The notes under the pieces are model-generated. The model saw nothing but the letters and a program-made list of their open reading frames with translations, did not search any database and was not told the origin of the DNA. DNA of 64,000 nucleotides from Microcoleus vaginatus WJT46-NPBG5 (GTDB lineage: Bacteria; Cyanobacteriota; Cyanobacteriia; Cyanobacteriales; Oscillatoriaceae): positions 1 to 64,000 of the forward strand of contig JAHHHM010000025.1 in the NCBI GenBank assembly GCA_019359355.1, written 5' to 3'. Positions 48,601 through 60,170 of the stretch are shown here, piece by piece. Position 1 is the first letter of the stretch. Each line of letters opens with the position of its first letter. A program made the position numbers and the translations under genes.

Positions 48601-49251
48601 TTAAACGGCTGCCGGTTCGAGCAGTTTCACGTTCGAGAAGTTGAACTCGGTGGTCGTTACTTGGCCATTTTCTTTGGAATGAATCACCTGACGAGTCATG
48701 ACATAGTAATTGCCAATTTTCTCGTAGGAGTCTTCAAATTGCAGTTCTTTGATGGTGTCATTCGTTTGCGGGTTCCGGAAAATGGCATCATACCGGCTTG
48801 CGGCGTAGCCTTCCCCAGTATCCAAGCTTTCGTGGGTGTCGATGGTGAACGCCATCCGTCCCATGACTCGGCTGACTTGGCAAATTTCGGTGCCTCGGAT
48901 CTTGTAATTCGATCCCATTGAGTCGCCTTTGACTAAAATTTCGAGTGCGCCGGTGTTGTCAGCTTCACCGGCACTAAAGGTGTTTTTTCCGTGAGATTGC
49001 TCGAAATTACTGCGTTTGCGGTGGGTGACGATGTCGCGCAGTTGGGTGTAGACGCTTTGTTTCACCTCGTCGTCTTCAATGCCGGTTACTTCGACACTCA
49101 TATCAGGCTTGATGGCAATCTTGCCGTGATAAACTTCATCACCCTGCTTGAGTACGATATCAGCCGTGTAGCCAGGAAAGTTCCCATCCCAGGTGTAGCG
49201 GTTTTCGTAAGCAGCTCGAAATAGCTCACGAGCATTCGTTTGCTCGGTCAT
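48601..49251 (-). CDS. DUF3386 domain protein
   Basis: A 216-residue soluble protein that matches the DUF3386 family of cyanobacteria and plants as I recall it. It opens with ARELFRAAYENRYTWDGNFPGY, followed by alternating beta strands (VLKQGDEVYHGKIAIKPDM, YASRYDAIFRN) and ends with TTTEFNFSNVKLLEP. There is no signal peptide, membrane segment or catalytic motif that I can see. The function is unknown. AGAGGAA precedes the ATG. It is upstream of nfu on the same strand, 136 bases away. Confidence 0.8.
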   Translation of the reverse strand: MTEQTNARELFRAAYENRYTWDGNFPGYTADIVLKQGDEVYHGKIAIKPDMSVEVTGIEDDEVKQSVYTQLRDIVTHRKRSNFEQSHGKNTFSAGEADNTGALEILVKGDSMGSNYKIRGTEICQVSRVMGRMAFTIDTHESLDTGEGYAASRYDAIFRNPQTNDTIKELQFEDSYEKIGNYYVMTRQVIHSKENGQVTTTEFNFSNVKLLEPAAV

Positions 49252-49917
49252 AAAATTCCTCTGTGTATCAACACTTACCAGTTTGACATCTTCCCCACCC
49301 AGGCGTACTGGCTAAGGGTGTGGATTCCCATCCTCGCTGATAGGGTTTCCTGCCTCTATGGTCGCTATTGCGTCTAAAAAGTCAAGTCATTAATAACTAA
49401 CAGTCAAATTATCTAACTCTCGCTTTATAGGTACTATCGGTGAGGTCAGGAAAAAATTACCATAAAAATCGTTTAGCAAAATTTTAGTAAAAGCTTCCTA
49501 GTCGCTGTTTAATTTTTGCTATTATCCAAGTATAAGTAGCTTTTTTATTTTGTAAAAATTAGTGTTATTTGCTACATTTTCTATGTTTACTATATGTTTC
49601 TTTGAAATATAAAGGTTCATCGTCGAATTAGGGGAAAACAACAATTACACTCCCATTAAAATTTTATCCTTCCAAAGGAGTAATATTCACCTTTGGTTTC
49701 TGCAAGAAACTTTGGTAAATTCACGAAATCGTGTTGCAGCTTTATAGAGAAGTTAATTATACTGGTTTTGATCAGCTTTTCTTTAAGTAACAGAATCTGG
49801 GAGGGATGAAGAAAGCTATAAAGTTGAGTTTGCCGGCTTCTAAGCTTTATATGCCTATCTCCAGAGCACCCTTCCATAGACTTTGATCCCTGATTAATAC
49901 TCTTTAAAAAAAATAAA
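49252..49917. other. Spacer upstream of the ethylene-receptor-like kinase
   Basis: 666 AT-rich bases between divergent genes. They must hold both promoters, but no -35/-10 pair stands out. No RNA gene, repeat or coding frame is convincing. Confidence 0.5.
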
Positions 49918-52900
49918 ATGCTGGAATTTTTCAAAAACCTTTTCGCTTGGCAACCATTTCTACCCCACGGACATTGCTATCTCTGGAAGCCAGGATTGGT
50001 GGAGCTTCATATTGTTTCCGACTCGATTATCGCCCTATCCTATTATTCAATCCTCATCACCCTGTTCTATTTTGTTCGTAAGCGACAAGATTTACCCTAC
50101 TCCTGGATGTTTCTGCTATTTAGCGCCTTCATCGTAGCTTGTGGCACCACTCACCTGATGGAGATTTGGACGCTTTGGTATCCCACCTATTGGCTGAGTG
50201 GATGCCTCAAAGCCATCACCGCCTTCGTTTCTTTCTTAACGGCTGTGGAGATGCTGCAATTGGTGCCCAAAGCGCTTGCTTTCCCTAGTCCCGCACAGTT
50301 GGAAGCAACGAACCAAAAACTGGAGCGTGAAATTAGCGAACGCAAGTTAGCAGAAGCAGCTCTGAAACAGGCTGGCGACGAGTTAGAAATTAAGGTAAAA
50401 GAACGCACGGCGCAACTGGCAACAGCTAATCAGGAGTTGCGGCAAGAGATTAGTGATCGCAAACAAACACAATTTGCCCTGCAAGCGTCGGAAGGCAGAC
50501 TGAAAGAAGTGCTTGATAACACAGGCGCTTTCATTTCTTCTGGACGTATCCATCCGGAAAAACCTTGGGAATATGACTACTATTCTCCTAATGGCGAGAA
50601 CATTTTTGGCTACAAGGGAGAAGAATTTGCTGCCGATCCGAGTCTGTGGTTTTCTCGAATTCATGCCCAAGATATTGAGACAATCATTCTGCCGGCGATG
50701 GAAGATTTGTATGCTGAACGCCAAGTAACTGTAGAATATCGATTTCGCCATAAAAATGGCAGTTGGCGCTGGTTATATAACACGTTGGTTGCCAAAAAAT
50801 ACGAATCTGAGGACTACTGGTTTCTCACCGGCATCGCTATTGACATCACTAAACGCAAACAAGCAGAAACAGCATTGCAGGAAAGCGAACAGCGCTTTGC
50901 AGCATTAGCGAAAACCGCGCCGGTTGGAATATTCCGCACCGATATTCAAGGTAATTGCGTGTACGGCAACGAACGCTGTTTTGACATGATTGGACTTGGC
51001 CCAAAGGAATGCATAGGAGCCGGCTGGACGACAGCGATACATCCGGATGATTGCGATAGCACTCTAGCCGCGTGGTTGAGTTTTGTGAAACAGGGCATTC
51101 CCTATTACTGGGAACACCGCTTTCAGCGACCGAATGGTAGCATTATCTGGGTGTTAGGACAGGCGATTGCTGAAAAAGATGCCGAGGGAAATATCATCGG
51201 TTACATCGGCACGGTTACCGAGATTACAGAGCGCAAGCAAGCAGAACAACTTTTAAAAGATTACAATCAAGTTCTCGAATTTCAGGTGCAAGAACGCACG
51301 GCTGAACTTAGCCAAACAAACACTTATTTAGAGCTTGAAATCGAAGAACGTAAGGAAATAGAAGCCAAATTGCGACGCAGCGAAGCCAAACTATCCGCTA
51401 TCTTAGATAATGCAGGGGCTTGTATTTATATCAAGGATTTGAATGGCACGTACATCTACGTCAATCGCTTAACTGAGGAGTTTTTTGGACGGAACGAATC
51501 TGAAATTATTGGAGCGAATGATCGGGATTTCTTTGTAGAAGAGTTAGCTGAAACTTACAAAGAAAATAACGATCAGGTAATAAAAACGGGTGTTGTCCAT
51601 CGTTTTGAGGAAGTCGGGATTGATCGTCAGGGAGAGCTTCATAACTATTTATCTACAAAAGTTCCTCTAAAAAATTCCGATGGCGATATTTATGCCATTT
51701 GTGGAATTTCCACAGATATTACCGAAATCAAAAAGGCAGAAGCAGCACTGCGGCAAAGTGAAGAACGAATGCAGGCACTTTTGAGGGCGATCCCCGATTT
51801 GATGTTTCGGCATCGGGTAGATGGTACTTATCTAGATATCGCGGGAAATGAAAGCTCCTTGCTGCTACCGCGCGAAGCACTCATTGGCAAAAAGATACAA
51901 GATACCCCTATTCCCGAACCCATTAAAACCGGCTTGCTGGAACGTTTTCGGGCAGCAGTGGCAACCGGAACCCTCCAAATTTACGAACACGACCTCGAAA
52001 AACCCGATGGAATGCACAGCTATGAGACGCGCATCATGAAAAGCCGTGCTGATGAGGTCGTGTGTCTCGTTCGCGATATTACCGAACGCAAGCGCTCACA
52101 AGCCGCCCTAGAAGAGAGCGAAGAACGCTACCGGACTGTAATTGCAGCGATGGCAGAGGGGATTGTCTTGCAAGATGCCGATGGTGCGATTCAAACTTGT
52201 AATCTCAGCGCCAAACGCATTTTGGGTTTGTCGCGTAAGCAAATGATGGGACGAACTTCCCTCGATCCCGGTTGGCGAGCGATTCGCGAAGATGGTTCAC
52301 CTTTCCCTGGCGAGGAACACCCGGCAATGGTGACGCTGCGAACCGGCACAGCTTGCTCTAACGTGGTGATGGGAGTTCACAAACCGGATGAGAGTTTTAC
52401 TTGGATTTCGATTAATTCTCGACCTTTATTTCGAGCCGGCGAAACGGTTCCCTATGCAGTGGTTGCCTCATTTGCAGATATTACCGCTCGCAAGCAGGCA
52501 GAAGAGGCACTGCGGCAAAGCGAAGCGCGTTATCTCGCGATTCTTCAAGATCAAACGGAACTGATCGCTCGCGCCTTGTTAGATGGAACCTTAACGTTTG
52601 TCAACGAAGCTTTCTGTCGATTCTCTGGCAAGACGCGGGAAGAACTCATCGGTTCTCGCTACGAACCTAACGTGTTTGAGGAAGACCGGGAAAATGTAAC
52701 AAGACTGATTAAGACACTTAGCGTCGATAATCCAGTCGTTGTTATCGAAAATCGGGTCATTGCGAAGGGAGAAGAGGTACGTTGGACGCAATGGATTAAT
52801 CGAGGAATATTCGACGAAGAGGGCCGGATGGTGGAGTTTCAAGGCGTTGGACGAGATATCACTGAACGCAAGGAAATTGAAGAAGTGCTTCGGGAAAGCG

Positions 52901-55900
52901 AAGCGATGCTATCAAACATTTTTGATAACGCCGGCGCTTATATTTACATGAAAGACTTAAATAGCCGGTACACCTACGTTAACCGTCCCATCTTGGAATT
53001 ATTTGACTGTAGCAAAGAAGAAATTATTGGCGCAGATAATTTCAAGTTTTTTGAGGCAGAAACCGCTCAACGCTTACGAGAAAGTGATTTGCAGGTTATT
53101 GAGAGCGGTGAGGTATCGCAATCCCAGCAAGTCACTACTGTGAAACACTCTGGGGAGGTGCATTACTATTGGGCGGTGAAAGTTCCCCTAAAACGCGCTG
53201 ATGGGAGTATTTACGCCCTTTGTGGGATTTCAACCGATATTACCGAACTGAAACGAACAGAAGAAGCGCTGCGGCACAGTGAATCAACGCTTCGCAGTTT
53301 CTTTGACAGCGGTTCGATGTTGATGGGCATTGTTGAGCTGTATGAGGATGATATTTTACATCTTTCCGATAACCTAACAGCAGCGCGGTTCTTCGGGACG
53401 ACGCCAGAACAGATGAAAAATCGGTTCGCAACTGACATAGGCGTGCCGGCAGCAAACCTACAACAGTGGCTCGATCACTACCGAGAAGCTTTACACACTC
53501 AAGCTGCCGTGCACTTTGAATATATTCACGAGGCTCCATCTGGGCAAAAATGGCTCTCTGCAAGCGTTTGCCCGATTGGAACCGGCCCTAACGGTTATCC
53601 GAGATTGTCGTACATTGTTGAGGACATCAGTGAGCGCAAATGGGCAGAAGAGGCACTGCAGTTAAGCGAAAGCCGGCTCAAACATCTAACGGCTAGCATT
53701 CCCGGAACCCTTTACTCCTATGGGCATTATCCCGATGGTTCAGGCAAGTTTGAATATCTCAGTCTCGGTTGCCAAGAAATGTTTGAGGCCGAGCCGGCAC
53801 GGGTAATCGAGGATGAAAATGTCCTTTTGAACCAAATTTCCCCCTATGACCGGCCCAAACATGAAGAGGCAGTTGCTCACGCCGTTCAAAACGTACTACC
53901 GTTTACTTCCCAATGGCACAATCTTGCCCCTTCTGGAAAACAAACCTGGCTGCGCGTCCAAGCTCAACCGGAATGTCGTGAAGATGGCTCTATAGTTTGG
54001 CATGGGGTGATATTAGATATCACAGATCGTAAACAAGTAGAAGAAAAGCTCAAACAGGCAGAGCATAAATATCGCACCTTAATTGAACAAATTCCAGGAG
54101 TTGTTTATATTTCTCCGATTGCAGCAACGACTGAGCAAGCTTATATCAGCCCTCAACTGCAACAATTATTAGAGATTTCTCCCGAAGAATGGTCTCCTGG
54201 GTTTTTTAATACTTGGGCTGAGTATGTGTATCCAGAAGATCATGAGCGCGTTTTGCAAGCCGTAAACACTGCGATTTCGACGGGAAAACCCTTGAGTGTT
54301 GAATATCGCATGATAACTCGCAGTGGCAAAATGATCTGGATTAGAGATCGTGCCCATCTTGTTTCCTCTGCCGGCGGACAGACTGAAGTGCTTCAAGGTT
54401 TAGCTTTCGATATTAGCGACCGCAAGCAAATGGAGCAAGCCTTGCAAGAAAGCAACGAACGATTTCAGCTAGCCGCATCAGCCGTTAAAGGATTTATCTA
54501 CGACTGGGATCTCAAACAGAATATTGTTCTCAGAACACAGGGATTATTTGAAGCTGTTGGATATCACCCCGAAGAAGCCGAAGCTAAAGTTGATTGGTGG
54601 AAGGAACAGGTTCACCCAGAAGATTTAGCCAACATTTCCCAGCAGTTATCCGAAGCATTTGGCAGTGAAACTCAAAATAACTACGTGCTGGAATACCGGC
54701 TTCGTCATCGAGATGGTCACTATGTTTACCTATCAGATTATGGAACCATCGCTAGAGATCCCGACGGAAAAGCCATTCGAGCAGTCGGTCACGCAATAGA
54801 TGTTAGTGATCGCCGAGAGGCAGAAGCCGCCTTGCAAAAAGCACTCCAAGCCGCCCAAGCCGCATCCATTGCTAAAAGCCGCTTTCTGTCTAACATGAGC
54901 CATGAACTGCGTACCCCTCTTAACGCCATTCTTGGTTTTAGTCAGGTGATGGTTCGCAGCAATTCTGTTTCCGTTGAACACAAAGAGCACTTACAAATCA
55001 TCAATCGCAGTGGCGAACATTTGCTCAGTTTAATTAACGATATTCTGTCAATGGCTAAAATTGAAGCCGGTCAGACTAAGCTGAATGGAACTCGCTTTGA
55101 TTTGTACCGGCTACTTGATGATTTAGAACAGATGCTTAAACTCAAGGCGACTTCTAAAGGGTTACAGCTAGTCTTTGAACGAGCATCTGATATTCCTCAA
55201 TACGTGCAAACCGATGAAAATAAGTTGCGTCAAGTTTTAATTAACCTGCTAGGAAATGCGGTTAAATTTACTGTAGCAGGTTATGTTGCATTGCGGGTGA
55301 AAAGAGGTAAGGGCCTAGAACAGCCTCATTCCCAAAACCAAAACTCCCAAACTTGTTTATTATTTGAAATTGAGGATACCGGAGCTGGTATTGCATCCGA
55401 TGAAATAGGCACTTTATTTAACCCCTTTGTCCAAACAGAAACGGGTCGGAAATCAATGCAGGGAACGGGGTTGGGTTTACCCATTAGCCGGCAGTTTGTC
55501 CAGATGATGGGGGGAATTATTACAGTTCGTAGTCAAGTTGCTAAAGGAACAATTTTTACCTTTGATGTTTTTGTGAACGAGGTTGCTGGGGCTGATGAAA
55601 AAAGTTTATCGAGTCGTCAGCGGGTAATTGGATTAGCGCCTAATCAGCAAGTTTACCGTATGCTAGTAGTTGAGGATGTGGAAGAGAACCGTCAGCTGCT
55701 ATTAAAATTGCTTGAACCTTTAGGATTTCAAGTGCGAGAAGCGGTTAACGGTGAAGAAGCTATTGCGCTGTGGTTAACCTGGAAACCGCATCTGATCTGG
55801 ATGGATATGCGGATGCCTGTTATGGACGGCTACGAAGCGACGAGAGAGATTAAAGCTTTGGAACAGAAAAGTGCGGGGTTACAAGAGAATAATAGCTCAA

Positions 55901-56325
55901 CCTTGGCCGGCAAAACTAAAATTATTGCTTTAACCGCTAGTGCTTTTGATGAACAGCAAACTAATATTTTGGCTGCCGGTTGCGACGACTTCATGCATAA
56001 ACCTTTCCGGGAGTGGCAACTGTTTGACAAGATAGCTCAACACCTCGGAGTGCGCTATATCTACGAAGAAGATGATCAAAGTGACTCACCTCAGTTAGAA
56101 GCACCCAGAAAACTGACCCCCCAAGATTTGAGCGTCATGTCTCCTGAGTGGATAGCGCAGCTACACCAAGCAATACTTTGTGCTGATGAAGCCTTAATTT
56201 TGAAGCTGATCAAACAAATTCCCGCTGCTGAATCTTCTTTGGCTCATACTCTTACAGATTTACTCAATAATTTTCGCCTGGATCTGCTTTTTGATTTAAC
56301 TCAAGAATTTAATCATGAGTCGTGA
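49918..56325 (+). CDS. Hybrid sensor kinase with ethylene-receptor-type membrane domain, 11 PAS, HisKA, HATPase, REC
   Basis: A 2135-residue hybrid kinase. Residues 1-125 form three membrane helices that closely match the ethylene-binding domain of plant ETR1 and Synechocystis Etr1: HIVSDSIIALSYYSI, then FIVACGTTHLMEIWTLW with C75 and H79 at the copper-binding positions. I count eleven PAS units, then HisKA with H1662 in NMSHELRTPLNAILGFS, an HATPase domain (DTGAGIASDE, GTGLGLPI) and a receiver domain with D1963 in LIWMDMRMPVMDGYE. A cyanobacterial C-terminal tail (LSVMSPEWIAQLHQAI) ends it. The stop overlaps the start of the diguanylate cyclase gene by 11 bases. Ethylene as ligand is inference. 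Confidence 0.93.
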   Translation: MLEFFKNLFAWQPFLPHGHCYLWKPGLVELHIVSDSIIALSYYSILITLFYFVRKRQDLPYSWMFLLFSAFIVACGTTHLMEIWTLWYPTYWLSGCLKAITAFVSFLTAVEMLQLVPKALAFPSPAQLEATNQKLEREISERKLAEAALKQAGDELEIKVKERTAQLATANQELRQEISDRKQTQFALQASEGRLKEVLDNTGAFISSGRIHPEKPWEYDYYSPNGENIFGYKGEEFAADPSLWFSRIHAQDIETIILPAMEDLYAERQVTVEYRFRHKNGSWRWLYNTLVAKKYESEDYWFLTGIAIDITKRKQAETALQESEQRFAALAKTAPVGIFRTDIQGNCVYGNERCFDMIGLGPKECIGAGWTTAIHPDDCDSTLAAWLSFVKQGIPYYWEHRFQRPNGSIIWVLGQAIAEKDAEGNIIGYIGTVTEITERKQAEQLLKDYNQVLEFQVQERTAELSQTNTYLELEIEERKEIEAKLRRSEAKLSAILDNAGACIYIKDLNGTYIYVNRLTEEFFGRNESEIIGANDRDFFVEELAETYKENNDQVIKTGVVHRFEEVGIDRQGELHNYLSTKVPLKNSDGDIYAICGISTDITEIKKAEAALRQSEERMQALLRAIPDLMFRHRVDGTYLDIAGNESSLLLPREALIGKKIQDTPIPEPIKTGLLERFRAAVATGTLQIYEHDLEKPDGMHSYETRIMKSRADEVVCLVRDITERKRSQAALEESEERYRTVIAAMAEGIVLQDADGAIQTCNLSAKRILGLSRKQMMGRTSLDPGWRAIREDGSPFPGEEHPAMVTLRTGTACSNVVMGVHKPDESFTWISINSRPLFRAGETVPYAVVASFADITARKQAEEALRQSEARYLAILQDQTELIARALLDGTLTFVNEAFCRFSGKTREELIGSRYEPNVFEEDRENVTRLIKTLSVDNPVVVIENRVIAKGEEVRWTQWINRGIFDEEGRMVEFQGVGRDITERKEIEEVLRESEAMLSNIFDNAGAYIYMKDLNSRYTYVNRPILELFDCSKEEIIGADNFKFFEAETAQRLRESDLQVIESGEVSQSQQVTTVKHSGEVHYYWAVKVPLKRADGSIYALCGISTDITELKRTEEALRHSESTLRSFFDSGSMLMGIVELYEDDILHLSDNLTAARFFGTTPEQMKNRFATDIGVPAANLQQWLDHYREALHTQAAVHFEYIHEAPSGQKWLSASVCPIGTGPNGYPRLSYIVEDISERKWAEEALQLSESRLKHLTASIPGTLYSYGHYPDGSGKFEYLSLGCQEMFEAEPARVIEDENVLLNQISPYDRPKHEEAVAHAVQNVLPFTSQWHNLAPSGKQTWLRVQAQPECREDGSIVWHGVILDITDRKQVEEKLKQAEHKYRTLIEQIPGVVYISPIAATTEQAYISPQLQQLLEISPEEWSPGFFNTWAEYVYPEDHERVLQAVNTAISTGKPLSVEYRMITRSGKMIWIRDRAHLVSSAGGQTEVLQGLAFDISDRKQMEQALQESNERFQLAASAVKGFIYDWDLKQNIVLRTQGLFEAVGYHPEEAEAKVDWWKEQVHPEDLANISQQLSEAFGSETQNNYVLEYRLRHRDGHYVYLSDYGTIARDPDGKAIRAVGHAIDVSDRREAEAALQKALQAAQAASIAKSRFLSNMSHELRTPLNAILGFSQVMVRSNSVSVEHKEHLQIINRSGEHLLSLINDILSMAKIEAGQTKLNGTRFDLYRLLDDLEQMLKLKATSKGLQLVFERASDIPQYVQTDENKLRQVLINLLGNAVKFTVAGYVALRVKRGKGLEQPHSQNQNSQTCLLFEIEDTGAGIASDEIGTLFNPFVQTETGRKSMQGTGLGLPISRQFVQMMGGIITVRSQVAKGTIFTFDVFVNEVAGADEKSLSSRQRVIGLAPNQQVYRMLVVEDVEENRQLLLKLLEPLGFQVREAVNGEEAIALWLTWKPHLIWMDMRMPVMDGYEATREIKALEQKSAGLQENNSSTLAGKTKIIALTASAFDEQQTNILAAGCDDFMHKPFREWQLFDKIAQHLGVRYIYEEDDQSDSPQLEAPRKLTPQDLSVMSPEWIAQLHQAILCADEALILKLIKQIPAAESSLAHTLTDLLNNFRLDLLFDLTQEFNHES

Positions 56326-57877
56326 CCAAACATCTACTTTTTTTGAAGATATTCTGATCGTTGATGATAGCGCAGACAACCTAAGAGTTTTGTCTACAAT
56401 ACTTGCTGAACAAGGATATAAAGTTAGAAAAGTGATTAGCGGAAAGCTGGCTTTAAGAGTCGTGCAAACCGCTCCACCGGCTCTCATTTTACTTGACATC
56501 TTGATGCCAGATTTGGATGGCTATGAAGTCTGCCGGTTGCTGAAAGAGAACCCACTAACCGCCAAAATTCCAGTAATTTTTATCAGTGCGCTTGATGATG
56601 TCTTTGATAAGGTTAAAGCCTTTGATGCCGGTGCAGTGGACTACATTGCGAAACCTTTTCAGACGGCAGAGGTTTTAGCTCGCGTTAAAAGCCAATTGAC
56701 GATTCGAGATTTTTATATTCAACTACAGCAGCAGACACAAAAACTCATTGAACAAAATAAATGCTTACAACAAGAAATTAAAAAACGCCAACGCGCTGAA
56801 GCGGAAACCAATCTCTTACTGAAGATAACGCAAGCAATTAGCGCAGCGGAGGATTTTCCCTCCGCTTTAGAAGTGACGGTTCGCCAAGTTTGCGAAACCA
56901 TAGGTTGGGATTTGGGAGAAGCTTGGATTCCTCATGAACGGGGTGAGATTTTAGAATACAGTCGAGGTTGGTATTCCGGTGAAGCGAACTTAGAACAATT
57001 TCAACTTGAGAGCAAGAAGTTGACGTATGCCCCAAATGTAGGATTGCCAGGGCGAATTTGGATATCCAAACAACCGGAGTGGATAGAAGATGTTTCTATT
57101 GCCAAAGACCCAGTTTTTTTCCGCTCTGCGCTTGCCTTAGATGCTGGACTCAAAGCAGCATTAGGTATTCCTATTGTTCTTAATAACCAAGTATTAACTG
57201 TTTTGATTTTTTTCAAGAAAGAAAAGCTTGAATCTAAACAGCGGCTGATTGAGCTATTGAAAGTGGTTGCAGCCCAATTAGGTGCGCTTGTTCAGCGTAA
57301 AAAAGCTGAAGCTGCTCTTAAAGAAGCTAACCTGAAACTGCACCGCCTTGCGACGGTGGATGAGTTGACAGGAGTTGCAAATCGTCGTTGGTTTAATGAA
57401 TACTTGAACCAAGAGTGGCGGCGGATGGCACGAGAGAGTTCACCTTTGTCTTTAATTTTGTGCGATCTAGATTATTTTAAACAATATAATGATAGCTATG
57501 GTCATTTAGTGGGAGATTTTTGCTTGCAGAAAGTTGCTCAAAAAATTAGTGAGGCGCTCAACCGACCCGCAGATTTAGTTGCTCGTTATGGAGGTGAAGA
57601 ATTTGTGATAATTTTGCCGAATACCCCTGCGGATGGAGCTTTACACATCGCTGAAGCTATACGAAATGAGGTTGAAAATCTTAATATGGAACACGCAAAA
57701 TCTGAGATTAGTCAATATGTGACTTTGAGTTTGGGCATTGTTAGCTTAGTTCCCCAAAATCCCCTGAACCCTTCAATTTTAATGGCTGTGGCGGATAAGG
57801 CACTTTATCAAGCTAAAGCTCAGGGAAGAAACCGCTCAGTTTTCAAACCTTTAGATTTAGAAAATTTAGAATTATAA
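56315..57877 (+). CDS. Response regulator diguanylate cyclase (REC-GAF-GGDEF)
   Basis: A 520-residue output protein. The receiver domain (about 12-130) has phospho-acceptor D61 in LILLDILMPDLDGYE. A short coiled coil and a GAF domain (about 165-325) follow, without bilin cysteines. The GGDEF domain has the active motif GGEEF (426-430) and, five residues before it, RPAD (417-420), a complete RxxD inhibitory site. It should make c-di-GMP and be inhibited by it. The ATG lies inside the end of the hybrid kinase gene (11-base overlap, ATGAGTCGTGA), so translation is coupled and the kinase probably phosphorylates this protein. Confidence 0.95.
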   Translation: MSRDQTSTFFEDILIVDDSADNLRVLSTILAEQGYKVRKVISGKLALRVVQTAPPALILLDILMPDLDGYEVCRLLKENPLTAKIPVIFISALDDVFDKVKAFDAGAVDYIAKPFQTAEVLARVKSQLTIRDFYIQLQQQTQKLIEQNKCLQQEIKKRQRAEAETNLLLKITQAISAAEDFPSALEVTVRQVCETIGWDLGEAWIPHERGEILEYSRGWYSGEANLEQFQLESKKLTYAPNVGLPGRIWISKQPEWIEDVSIAKDPVFFRSALALDAGLKAALGIPIVLNNQVLTVLIFFKKEKLESKQRLIELLKVVAAQLGALVQRKKAEAALKEANLKLHRLATVDELTGVANRRWFNEYLNQEWRRMARESSPLSLILCDLDYFKQYNDSYGHLVGDFCLQKVAQKISEALNRPADLVARYGGEEFVIILPNTPADGALHIAEAIRNEVENLNMEHAKSEISQYVTLSLGIVSLVPQNPLNPSILMAVADKALYQAKAQGRNRSVFKPLDLENLEL

Positions 57878-58151
57878 ATACCATTAATTTCTTAGTGGTG
57901 GAATCTTAAGCTTTATTAAGCGAATTGGATTGCTAAACTTTCGTAAAACTTCCCAAGAAGATTAAATACCTGACTGATAAAAATATTCTTTTAAAAGAAC
58001 TTAATGCTGAGTAGATAATAATTTTAGCAGCTTTTAACTTTTAAGCGATGAGCGGGGAAATTCATTTTAAAATAAATTAGCCCTGCTTTACTGCCGGCAA
58101 CAGAAACGTCAAAATAGAAATGACGATTTTTTTCTGGCGCAATTTTGACTG

Positions 58152-60170
58152 ATGGACATTCCCCGCCTACATCCAGACACGATTGAAGAAGTTAAGCAAC
58201 GCGTTGATATCATCGATGTCATCTCCGAACACGTCGTGCTACGAAAGCGCGGGAAGGATTATGTGGGTTTGTGTCCTTTCCATGAGGAAAAATCACCCAG
58301 CTTTACGGTAAGTCCTGGGAAGCAAATGTACTACTGCTTTGGCTGTAATGCCGGCGGTAATGCGATTGGATTTCTCAAGGAAGTGGGGAAGCAATCCTAT
58401 AGCGATGTGGTGTTAGATTTGGCGAAGCGCTATCAGGTGCCGATCAAAACCCTGCAAGCCGAACACCGGCAGGAATTTCAGCGCCAAATTTCTATTAGAG
58501 AGCAATTGTATGAAATTCTAGCGATTGCCTCCAGTTTTTACCAACACGCCCTGACTCAACCCCAAGGCAAATTGGCATTAGATTACCTGGAGTCTGAGCG
58601 GCAACTGAGTCCAGAAACAATTCAGCAGTTTCAACTCGGTTATGCGCCTGCCGGCTGGGATACGCTTTACCGCTATCTGGTGGAAGTTAAACAGCAGCCG
58701 GTGCAGTTGGTGGAACAAGCCGGTTTAATTGCACCCCGCAAGTCGGGAAGCGGCTATTATGACCGATTTCGGGAGCGTCTGATTATTCCTATTCACGATA
58801 TCCAAGGAAGAACGATTGGTTTTGGCGGTAGAACTTTGACGGATGAGCAACCGAAATACCTCAATTCGCCGGAAACTGAGCTATTTGACAAAGGCAGAAC
58901 CTTGTTTGCTCTCGATAAAGCACGAAATGCGATTTCTAAAGAAGATCAAGCGGTGGTAGTGGAGGGATATTTTGATGCGATCGCCCTTCACGCTGCCGGT
59001 ATTGCCAATGTTGTTGCTTCATTGGGAACCGCTCTGAGTTTAGAGCAAGTGCGTCAATTGCTACGCCACACAGAATCGAAGCAAATTGTGCTTAATTTTG
59101 ATGCAGATAAAGCCGGCACCAGTGCGGCAGACAGAGCAATTGGAGAAATCTCGGATCTGGCTTACCGGGGTGAAGTGCAACTGCGAATTCTTAATATTCC
59201 CGATGGTAAAGATGCGGATGAATTTCTAAAAACTTATTCTTCTGAGCAGTATCGAGAACTTTTAGCAAATGCTTCTCTGTGGCTTGATTGGAAAATTCAG
59301 CAAACTTTGCTTGAGCGCAACTTAACCCAAGCGGATCAATTTCAGCAAGTGGCAACGGCAATGGTGAAGTTATTGTGTAATATCTCTAACGATAACCAGT
59401 TAACTCATTATATCAATCGCTGTGCCGAACTTTTGAGCCAAGGGGATTCTCGCCGGCAACCTTTATTAGCGGATAATCTTCTTAGTCAAATTGTTCGTTA
59501 CTGCGAAGAACTTCTCAGCCATGATGAGTCATGCCGGTTTGCCCCGTTTATCGAAAGTCGCTTGCAACAAAATAAGCGCCGTTTTGTGCGTCGTGCCGGC
59601 ACCCCAAAGTCAAATCCTGCTCAAGCACTTCCACTTTCTTCTGAACGCAATCTTTTAGAAAAAGCCGAAGCTTTACTACTGCTGATTTATCTCCACTACC
59701 CCGAACATCGGCAGGCGGTTCTTGATGCTTTAGAGGAACGAGATTTAGAATTTAGTTTATCTCATCATCGATTTTTATGGCGGCAGATTTCGGAGATTCC
59801 GACTGCCAGTGTTGAGCCGACACAGCTTATTTCGACACTTCAAGATCGTTGCTTGGAGTTGTCTGAGGATATGGCTGTTATTTCTCCCCTATTTTATTTA
59901 GATGAAAGAACGAAGCAGGAAATCTTGCGAACTCCCCTGGTTATTCGCGCTGCTGCTGCTTCTATCGAGCGGGTAATGTGTGAGAAACGCTATCGTTTAT
60001 TTCTGGATTTATGGCGTAATACAGACAGTAAGACGAATCCTGATCTTTTTGAGTCTTATTTACAGCAACTTTATGCGGAACAAGCTCGCATTCAAGAATT
60101 AGATCGGCAGCGTCATACTACATTTTCTGATTTGGTGCAGTTGCCTTGGATCGGGAATTTTGTATCTTAG
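58152..60170 (+). CDS. dnaG: DNA primase
   Basis: A 672-residue bacterial primase making RNA primers at the replication fork. The CHC2 zinc finger is complete (C41, H44, C62, C65 in CPFHEEK and YYCFGCNAGG). The RNA polymerase core and TOPRIM domain follow (VVEGYFDAIALHAAG, VLNFDADKAG, IPDGKDADEFL). The C-terminal part (about 430-672) is the helicase-binding region. The length is slightly above average, as in cyanobacteria. The start MDIPRLHPDTIEEVKQR is typical of cyanobacterial DnaG. It is monocistronic and convergent with the pentapeptide gene. Confidence 0.96.
   Translation: MDIPRLHPDTIEEVKQRVDIIDVISEHVVLRKRGKDYVGLCPFHEEKSPSFTVSPGKQMYYCFGCNAGGNAIGFLKEVGKQSYSDVVLDLAKRYQVPIKTLQAEHRQEFQRQISIREQLYEILAIASSFYQHALTQPQGKLALDYLESERQLSPETIQQFQLGYAPAGWDTLYRYLVEVKQQPVQLVEQAGLIAPRKSGSGYYDRFRERLIIPIHDIQGRTIGFGGRTLTDEQPKYLNSPETELFDKGRTLFALDKARNAISKEDQAVVVEGYFDAIALHAAGIANVVASLGTALSLEQVRQLLRHTESKQIVLNFDADKAGTSAADRAIGEISDLAYRGEVQLRILNIPDGKDADEFLKTYSSEQYRELLANASLWLDWKIQQTLLERNLTQADQFQQVATAMVKLLCNISNDNQLTHYINRCAELLSQGDSRRQPLLADNLLSQIVRYCEELLSHDESCRFAPFIESRLQQNKRRFVRRAGTPKSNPAQALPLSSERNLLEKAEALLLLIYLHYPEHRQAVLDALEERDLEFSLSHHRFLWRQISEIPTASVEPTQLISTLQDRCLELSEDMAVISPLFYLDERTKQEILRTPLVIRAAAASIERVMCEKRYRLFLDLWRNTDSKTNPDLFESYLQQLYAEQARIQELDRQRHTTFSDLVQLPWIGNFVS

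Follow-up and report, generated by a model that had tools for sequence, protein, structure and literature searches.

The window, a 64,000-nucleotide stretch of Microcoleus vaginatus WJT46-NPBG5, contains an open reading frame with an ATG start (positions 49918-56325) that encodes a hybrid histidine kinase of 2135 amino acids, and this gene is directly adjoined by a gene for a putative diguanylate cyclase. The features of the two genes, with the evidence on which they were assigned, are as follows.

49918..56325, + strand: hybrid histidine kinase, 2135 aa, consisting of ETR1_N, coiled linker, eleven PAS/PAC units, HisKA, HATPase_c, receiver and tail (ORF, Pfam, motifs)
49996..50280, + strand: ETR1_N domain (Pfam PF25487), aa 27-121 (Pfam, structure model)
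50020..50022, + strand: D35, equivalent to ETR1 D25, conserved (alignment, motif check)
50053..50055, + strand: L46, codon CTC, equivalent to ETR1 P36, a Never-ripe-type position (alignment, ortholog comparison, literature)
50140..50142, + strand: C75, equivalent to ETR1 C65, copper ligand, conserved (alignment, motif check)
50152..50154, + strand: H79, equivalent to ETR1 H69, copper ligand, conserved (alignment, motif check)
50485..54819, + strand: eleven PAS/PAC units, about aa 190-1634, start approximate (PAC motifs and Pfam PAS families)
54871..55569, + strand: HisKA (aa 1652-1718) and HATPase_c (aa 1765-1884) (Pfam, motifs)
55663..56034, + strand: C-terminal receiver of the kinase (aa 1916-2039) (Pfam, motifs)
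56315..57877, + strand: response regulator diguanylate cyclase, REC-GAF-GGDEF, 520 aa (ORF, Pfam, motifs)

The kinase and the neighbouring cyclase

All catalytic boxes of the kinase were present, namely the H-box of HisKA, the N, G1 and G2 boxes of HATPase_c and the Asp and Lys of the receiver, as expected of the predicted hybrid histidine kinase. Within residues 305-1624, a motif scan revealed eleven PAC motifs, which supports a count of eleven PAS domains. Plant-type ethylene receptors have a GAF domain between the membrane domain and the kinase; the Pfam search revealed no GAF match in the present protein, which has the PAS array instead, and no GAF or phytochrome match indicative of a phytochrome-like chromophore-binding domain. 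The tail of approximately 95 residues after the receiver (about aa 2041-2135, window positions 56035-56322) was also without a Pfam match, and no HPt domain was found in the kinase. Such Pfam-less tails after the receiver occur in other cyanobacterial hybrid kinases. At the locus, an Rfam search gave no match, and promoter and terminator scans gave scores near chance.

The kinase and cyclase genes share an overlap of 11 nt. The product of the cyclase gene carries a GGEEF motif at residue 426, an RPAD sequence (RxxD, the I-site) at residue 417 and LLD around residue 61, thus showing the GG(D/E)EF motif, I-site and receiver Asp of a response regulator that is predicted to be an active diguanylate cyclase. 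The gene order DUF3386, kinase, regulator and dnaG was identical in both sister species, and the pairing of kinase and cyclase was conserved in both. Within positions 48601-60170, the kinase and regulator showed approximately 86% identity between sister species and the flanking DUF3386 and dnaG genes 97-99%; the whole pair therefore evolves quickly. A giant kinase bearing eleven PAS domains and a receiver and coupled to a cyclase had been proposed in the first-pass annotation. The PAC motifs, Pfam PAS families and receiver motifs agree with this description, and the coupling proved to consist of the adjoining, overlapping REC-GAF-GGDEF gene with its GGEEF motif.

ETR1_N was present in 33 of 40 relatives (profile search). 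In a phylum-wide sample of 292 genomes it occurred in 74, and a single genome held as many as nine copies. We also observed 17 surveyed loci in which an ETR1_N hybrid kinase or related protein was directly followed by a REC-GGDEF gene, as well as 15 surveyed proteins in which ETR1_N was fused directly to GGDEF. Because the domain is this widespread, and because these loci, these fusions and the published GeiEtr2 case (PMC6682694) exist, the kinase architecture represents a large member of a type already known, and novelty of the kinase-cyclase coupling was ruled out by the similar loci and GeiEtr2.

The membrane domain and the position of ETR1 P36

The ETR1_N profile PF25487 matched with E=2.3e-40 when the whole protein was used and 2.1e-42 when the domain alone was used. 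The score of 143.8 bits, compared with a curated cut-off of 27, assigns the kinase to the ETR1_N proteins, and a search of 14 control genomes with this profile gave zero matches. The predicted model contained three long helices (H25-55, H62-85 and H92-120; mean pLDDT 80), and hydropathy likewise gave three hydrophobic helices at the kinase N-terminus, consistent with the three N-terminal transmembrane helices of ETR1_N proteins. A sequence search of solved structures revealed no relative of the membrane domain, and all matches in a fold search with its model had E values of 4 or higher. The ETR1 pattern positions were occupied as expected by D35, Y42, I45, I72, C75, H79 and K98; in particular, C75 and H79 supply the putative Cu(I) ligands that a functional ethylene receptor would need.

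Seven residues are needed for ethylene binding to ETR1 (PMC11819568), and P36, I35, I62, C65 and H69 are named as essential for this binding (PMC6586836). The other two are D25 and Y32, whose inclusion among the seven reportedly goes back to Wang et al. (2006). The kinase has six of the seven, with P36 replaced by L46, and in this respect it departs from functional ethylene receptors. Alanine at P36 is one of seven changes that abolish ethylene binding to ETR1 (PMC11819568, PMC6586836), squash CpETR1A P36L is listed among the gain-of-function alleles of ethylene receptors (PMC8012379), and in tomato Never-ripe a proline of ETR3 is replaced by leucine (PMC6724093). Both same-genus orthologs have proline with the codon CCC, compared with CTC here, and since these sister orthologs lie in an identical gene order, the change from CCC to CTC is recent. 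We take the tomato Never-ripe change to affect residue 36. Plant alleles of the P36L or Never-ripe type are ethylene-insensitive.

The ETR1-type pattern in the first 125 residues and the identification of C75 and H79 as Cu(I)-ligand positions, both put forward in the first-pass annotation, were upheld by the Pfam match, the residue positions and the alignment to ETR1 C65 and H69. The same annotation overlooked L46 and regarded the input as the same as that of the ethylene-binding Synechocystis receptor; as regards the copper-site membrane domain this stands, whereas ethylene sensing is doubtful, given the leucine at P36 and the proline kept by the sisters. Thus, the sequence observation is confirmed, the architecture is known and the ethylene interpretation appears doubtful.

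The leucine at 50053-50055 rests on a single base in one assembly, and this base separates the codon from both sisters, as would be seen if L46 were a sequencing or assembly error in an ordinary ethylene receptor of the group. We consider such an error very improbable, since the frame stays open through all 2135 codons, the assembly has a completeness of 99.6% and a contamination of 0.75%, and six of the eight ETR1_N domains of the genome depart from the seven-residue set, and do so at many positions. General decay of the membrane domain was ruled out, as the unique amino-acid changes numbered 7 here and 9 and 9 in the two sister species.

Variation of the seven residues among paralogs and across cyanobacteria

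Eight ETR1_N proteins were found in this genome and eight in each of the two other species of the genus examined. Only two of the eight here keep all seven residues: the contig C24 paralog (L077), which has PAS and kinase domains and is followed by a receiver gene, and the paralog at C26:9457 (L078), which has PAS and kinase domains. Among the others, the contig C6 paralog (L079, C6:50448-50735) is a single ETR1_N-PAS-GAF-PAS-GGDEF-EAL protein in which P36A is fixed in all three species of the genus, and the contig C7 paralog (L080, C7:19099-19386), a kinase-receiver protein, has alanine at P36 with GCG compared with CCG in both sisters. By this codon comparison, the C7 paralog lost the proline independently, which is a second loss in this species. 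The remaining variants were D25H, P36S and I62V in the C26:3750 paralog (given as L078); I35V, P36A and I62F in the contig C43 paralog (L082, C43:87002-87295); and D25E, I62L and C65G, without K91, in the contig C10 paralog (L081, C10:80687-80968), which contains a kinase, two receivers and a C-terminal Hpt and precedes a REC-GGDEF gene.

We observed that the loss of the copper cysteine (C65G), D25 and K91 in L081 is common to three species (sisters L155 and L156), with the REC-GGDEF neighbour kept and the Hpt gained. The variant site of L082, DYVAFCH, is also common to several species (sisters L171 and L172; also L170), which suggests that its bearers form a stable subfamily whose binding residues are altered. 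None of the three c-di-GMP-linked ETR1_N proteins in this genome (the window kinase and the C6 and C10 paralogs) has the full seven, and the two full-set proteins are not so linked.

The survey comprised 143 domain rows from 142 loci, as L006 and L081 are the same place counted twice; all seven residues were kept in 101 of the 143 rows. After removal of the duplicate (n=142), the P36 position was occupied by P in 114 domains, A in 12, S in 11, T in 3, G in 1 and L in 1, the sole leucine being that of the window kinase. P36 was the most variable of the seven residues in cyanobacteria, with 28 of 142 domains non-proline, and it was the only changed residue in 19 of these 28. H69 was kept in all surveyed domains and C65 in 134 of 142. 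On the domain tree, where the short alignment limits support, the non-proline state required 15 changes, at least nine of which were forced by well-supported branches. At least one of the seven residues was changed in 32 of 68 proteins of at least 1000 aa, compared with 10 of 75 shorter ones; this association is descriptive, as related proteins do not count as independent observations and part of the sample was obtained by means of the window's own sequence.

These counts bear on whether the proline is dispensable and the kinase is a working ethylene receptor, in which ethylene would bind Cu(I), switch the kinase and hence affect c-di-GMP. All copper ligands, D35, Y42, I72 and K98 are present, the non-proline state recurs in otherwise conserved domains, the C6 paralog has its non-proline residue fixed in three species with low amino-acid change, and ethylene is known from the literature to affect phototaxis and biofilm formation in cyanobacteria. 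Nevertheless, we regard a working receptor as rather unlikely, because ETR1 loses ethylene binding when P36 is replaced by alanine, and leucine, the allele of ethylene-insensitive plants, was present in no other surveyed domain.

Another explanation is that the domain still binds copper and has been retuned to some other ligand, a redox state or a membrane condition, with loss of P36 as part of this process in several lineages. The roughly 15 changes at P36 alongside the retained H69 and mostly retained C65 would fit, as would the fixed variant sites, for example DYVAFCH in three species, and the excess of changed sites in long receptors, where other inputs could dominate. However, no ligand is indicated, the change in the window kinase is recent and single, and the length association treats relatives as independent, and we judge retuning of this kinase to be quite improbable.

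Proposed function and comparison with known systems

The explanation that we favour, with modest confidence, is that the kinase has a copper-holding membrane input of the ETR1_N type with impaired ethylene binding, placed on a PAS-controlled phosphorelay to c-di-GMP. In the three-helix domain, C75 and H79 probably still bind Cu(I), and the P36-to-leucine change in helix 1, by analogy with plant P36L, has probably left this species with a domain that binds ethylene very weakly or not at all. The membrane domain would thus be left in the ethylene-free signalling state, and the eleven PAS domains would mainly set the kinase. Judging from the domains and the gene overlap, phosphate would then pass to the co-encoded REC-GAF-GGDEF protein and change c-di-GMP; this transfer is to be read with the caveat that the kinase has its own receiver and that no HPt was found in it. 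Ethylene sensing in the organism would rest with the two full-set paralogs on contigs C24 and C26. The plant result may not carry over, because cyanobacterial domains vary more at P36 than at the other six residues, and the proline may matter less in cyanobacteria than in plants; this variability is the main reason why our confidence is not higher.

Bacterial ETR1_N proteins usually go by the name of ethylene receptors. This designation is in itself no proof of ethylene sensing, since the seven-residue test fails in approximately three of ten surveyed domains and in six of eight in one genome. We tentatively propose, as a possibility that we hold to be doubtful, that the ETR1_N domain in cyanobacteria repeatedly drops the proline required for ethylene binding and yet keeps the copper ligands. 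The receptors so formed would be a class that holds copper, is blind to ethylene or retuned, and controls c-di-GMP, and the window kinase would be a very recent natural Never-ripe allele. The three sister species offer a ready natural experiment, since gene and neighbours are the same in all of them, and two have proline and one has leucine. Their comparison would show whether P36 is important beyond plants and whether a domain can hold copper without binding ethylene.

Among known systems, SynEtr1 (Etr1, slr1212) of Synechocystis sp. PCC 6803 likewise combines a three-helix ETR1_N domain and copper ligands with PAS and histidine kinase domains (PMC6508509, PMC6682694). In contrast to the window kinase, it has a phytochrome-like photosensing part, of which Pfam revealed none here, it is partnered with the transcription regulators Slr1213 and Slr1214 rather than a REC-GAF-GGDEF diguanylate cyclase, and it shows the seven binding residues in published alignments (PMC11819568), where the window kinase has leucine at P36. 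With neither a chromophore domain nor a Slr1213-type partner, the window kinase does not appear to be a photoreceptor/ethylene receptor of the SynEtr1 type. Light and ethylene act oppositely on the one SynEtr1 kinase (PMC6508509), and a multi-input protein with one input lost is therefore plausible.

GeiEtr2 of Geitlerinema sp. PCC 7105 is also composed of ETR1_N, PAS, kinase and a C-terminal receiver, with a gene for a diguanylate-cyclase-domain protein in its neighbourhood (PMC6682694); it has 1025 aa, a GAF domain and all seven residues, whereas the window kinase has 2135 aa, eleven PAS domains, no GAF and a changed P36. Squash etr1a (CpETR1A P36L) has the proline-to-leucine change at the same ETR1 position as L46 (PMC8012379), and tomato Never-ripe (ETR3) has a proline-to-leucine change as well (PMC6724093); these are plant mutants, whereas L46 occurs naturally in one bacterial species, and its kinase has further inputs. 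AzoEtr1 of Azospirillum brasilense is a bacterial ETR1_N receptor with the same D35/C75 numbering that affects biofilm, but it has the seven residues intact and shown ethylene binding, and it belongs to another genus and architecture (PMC11819568). Outside the genus, the closest membrane domains (75-79% identity) were those of the Nostoc ETR1_N-PAS-GGDEF fusions (L009-L011 and L034), which likewise have a GGDEF output, although they carry the cyclase in the same polypeptide, have no kinase relay and keep P36.
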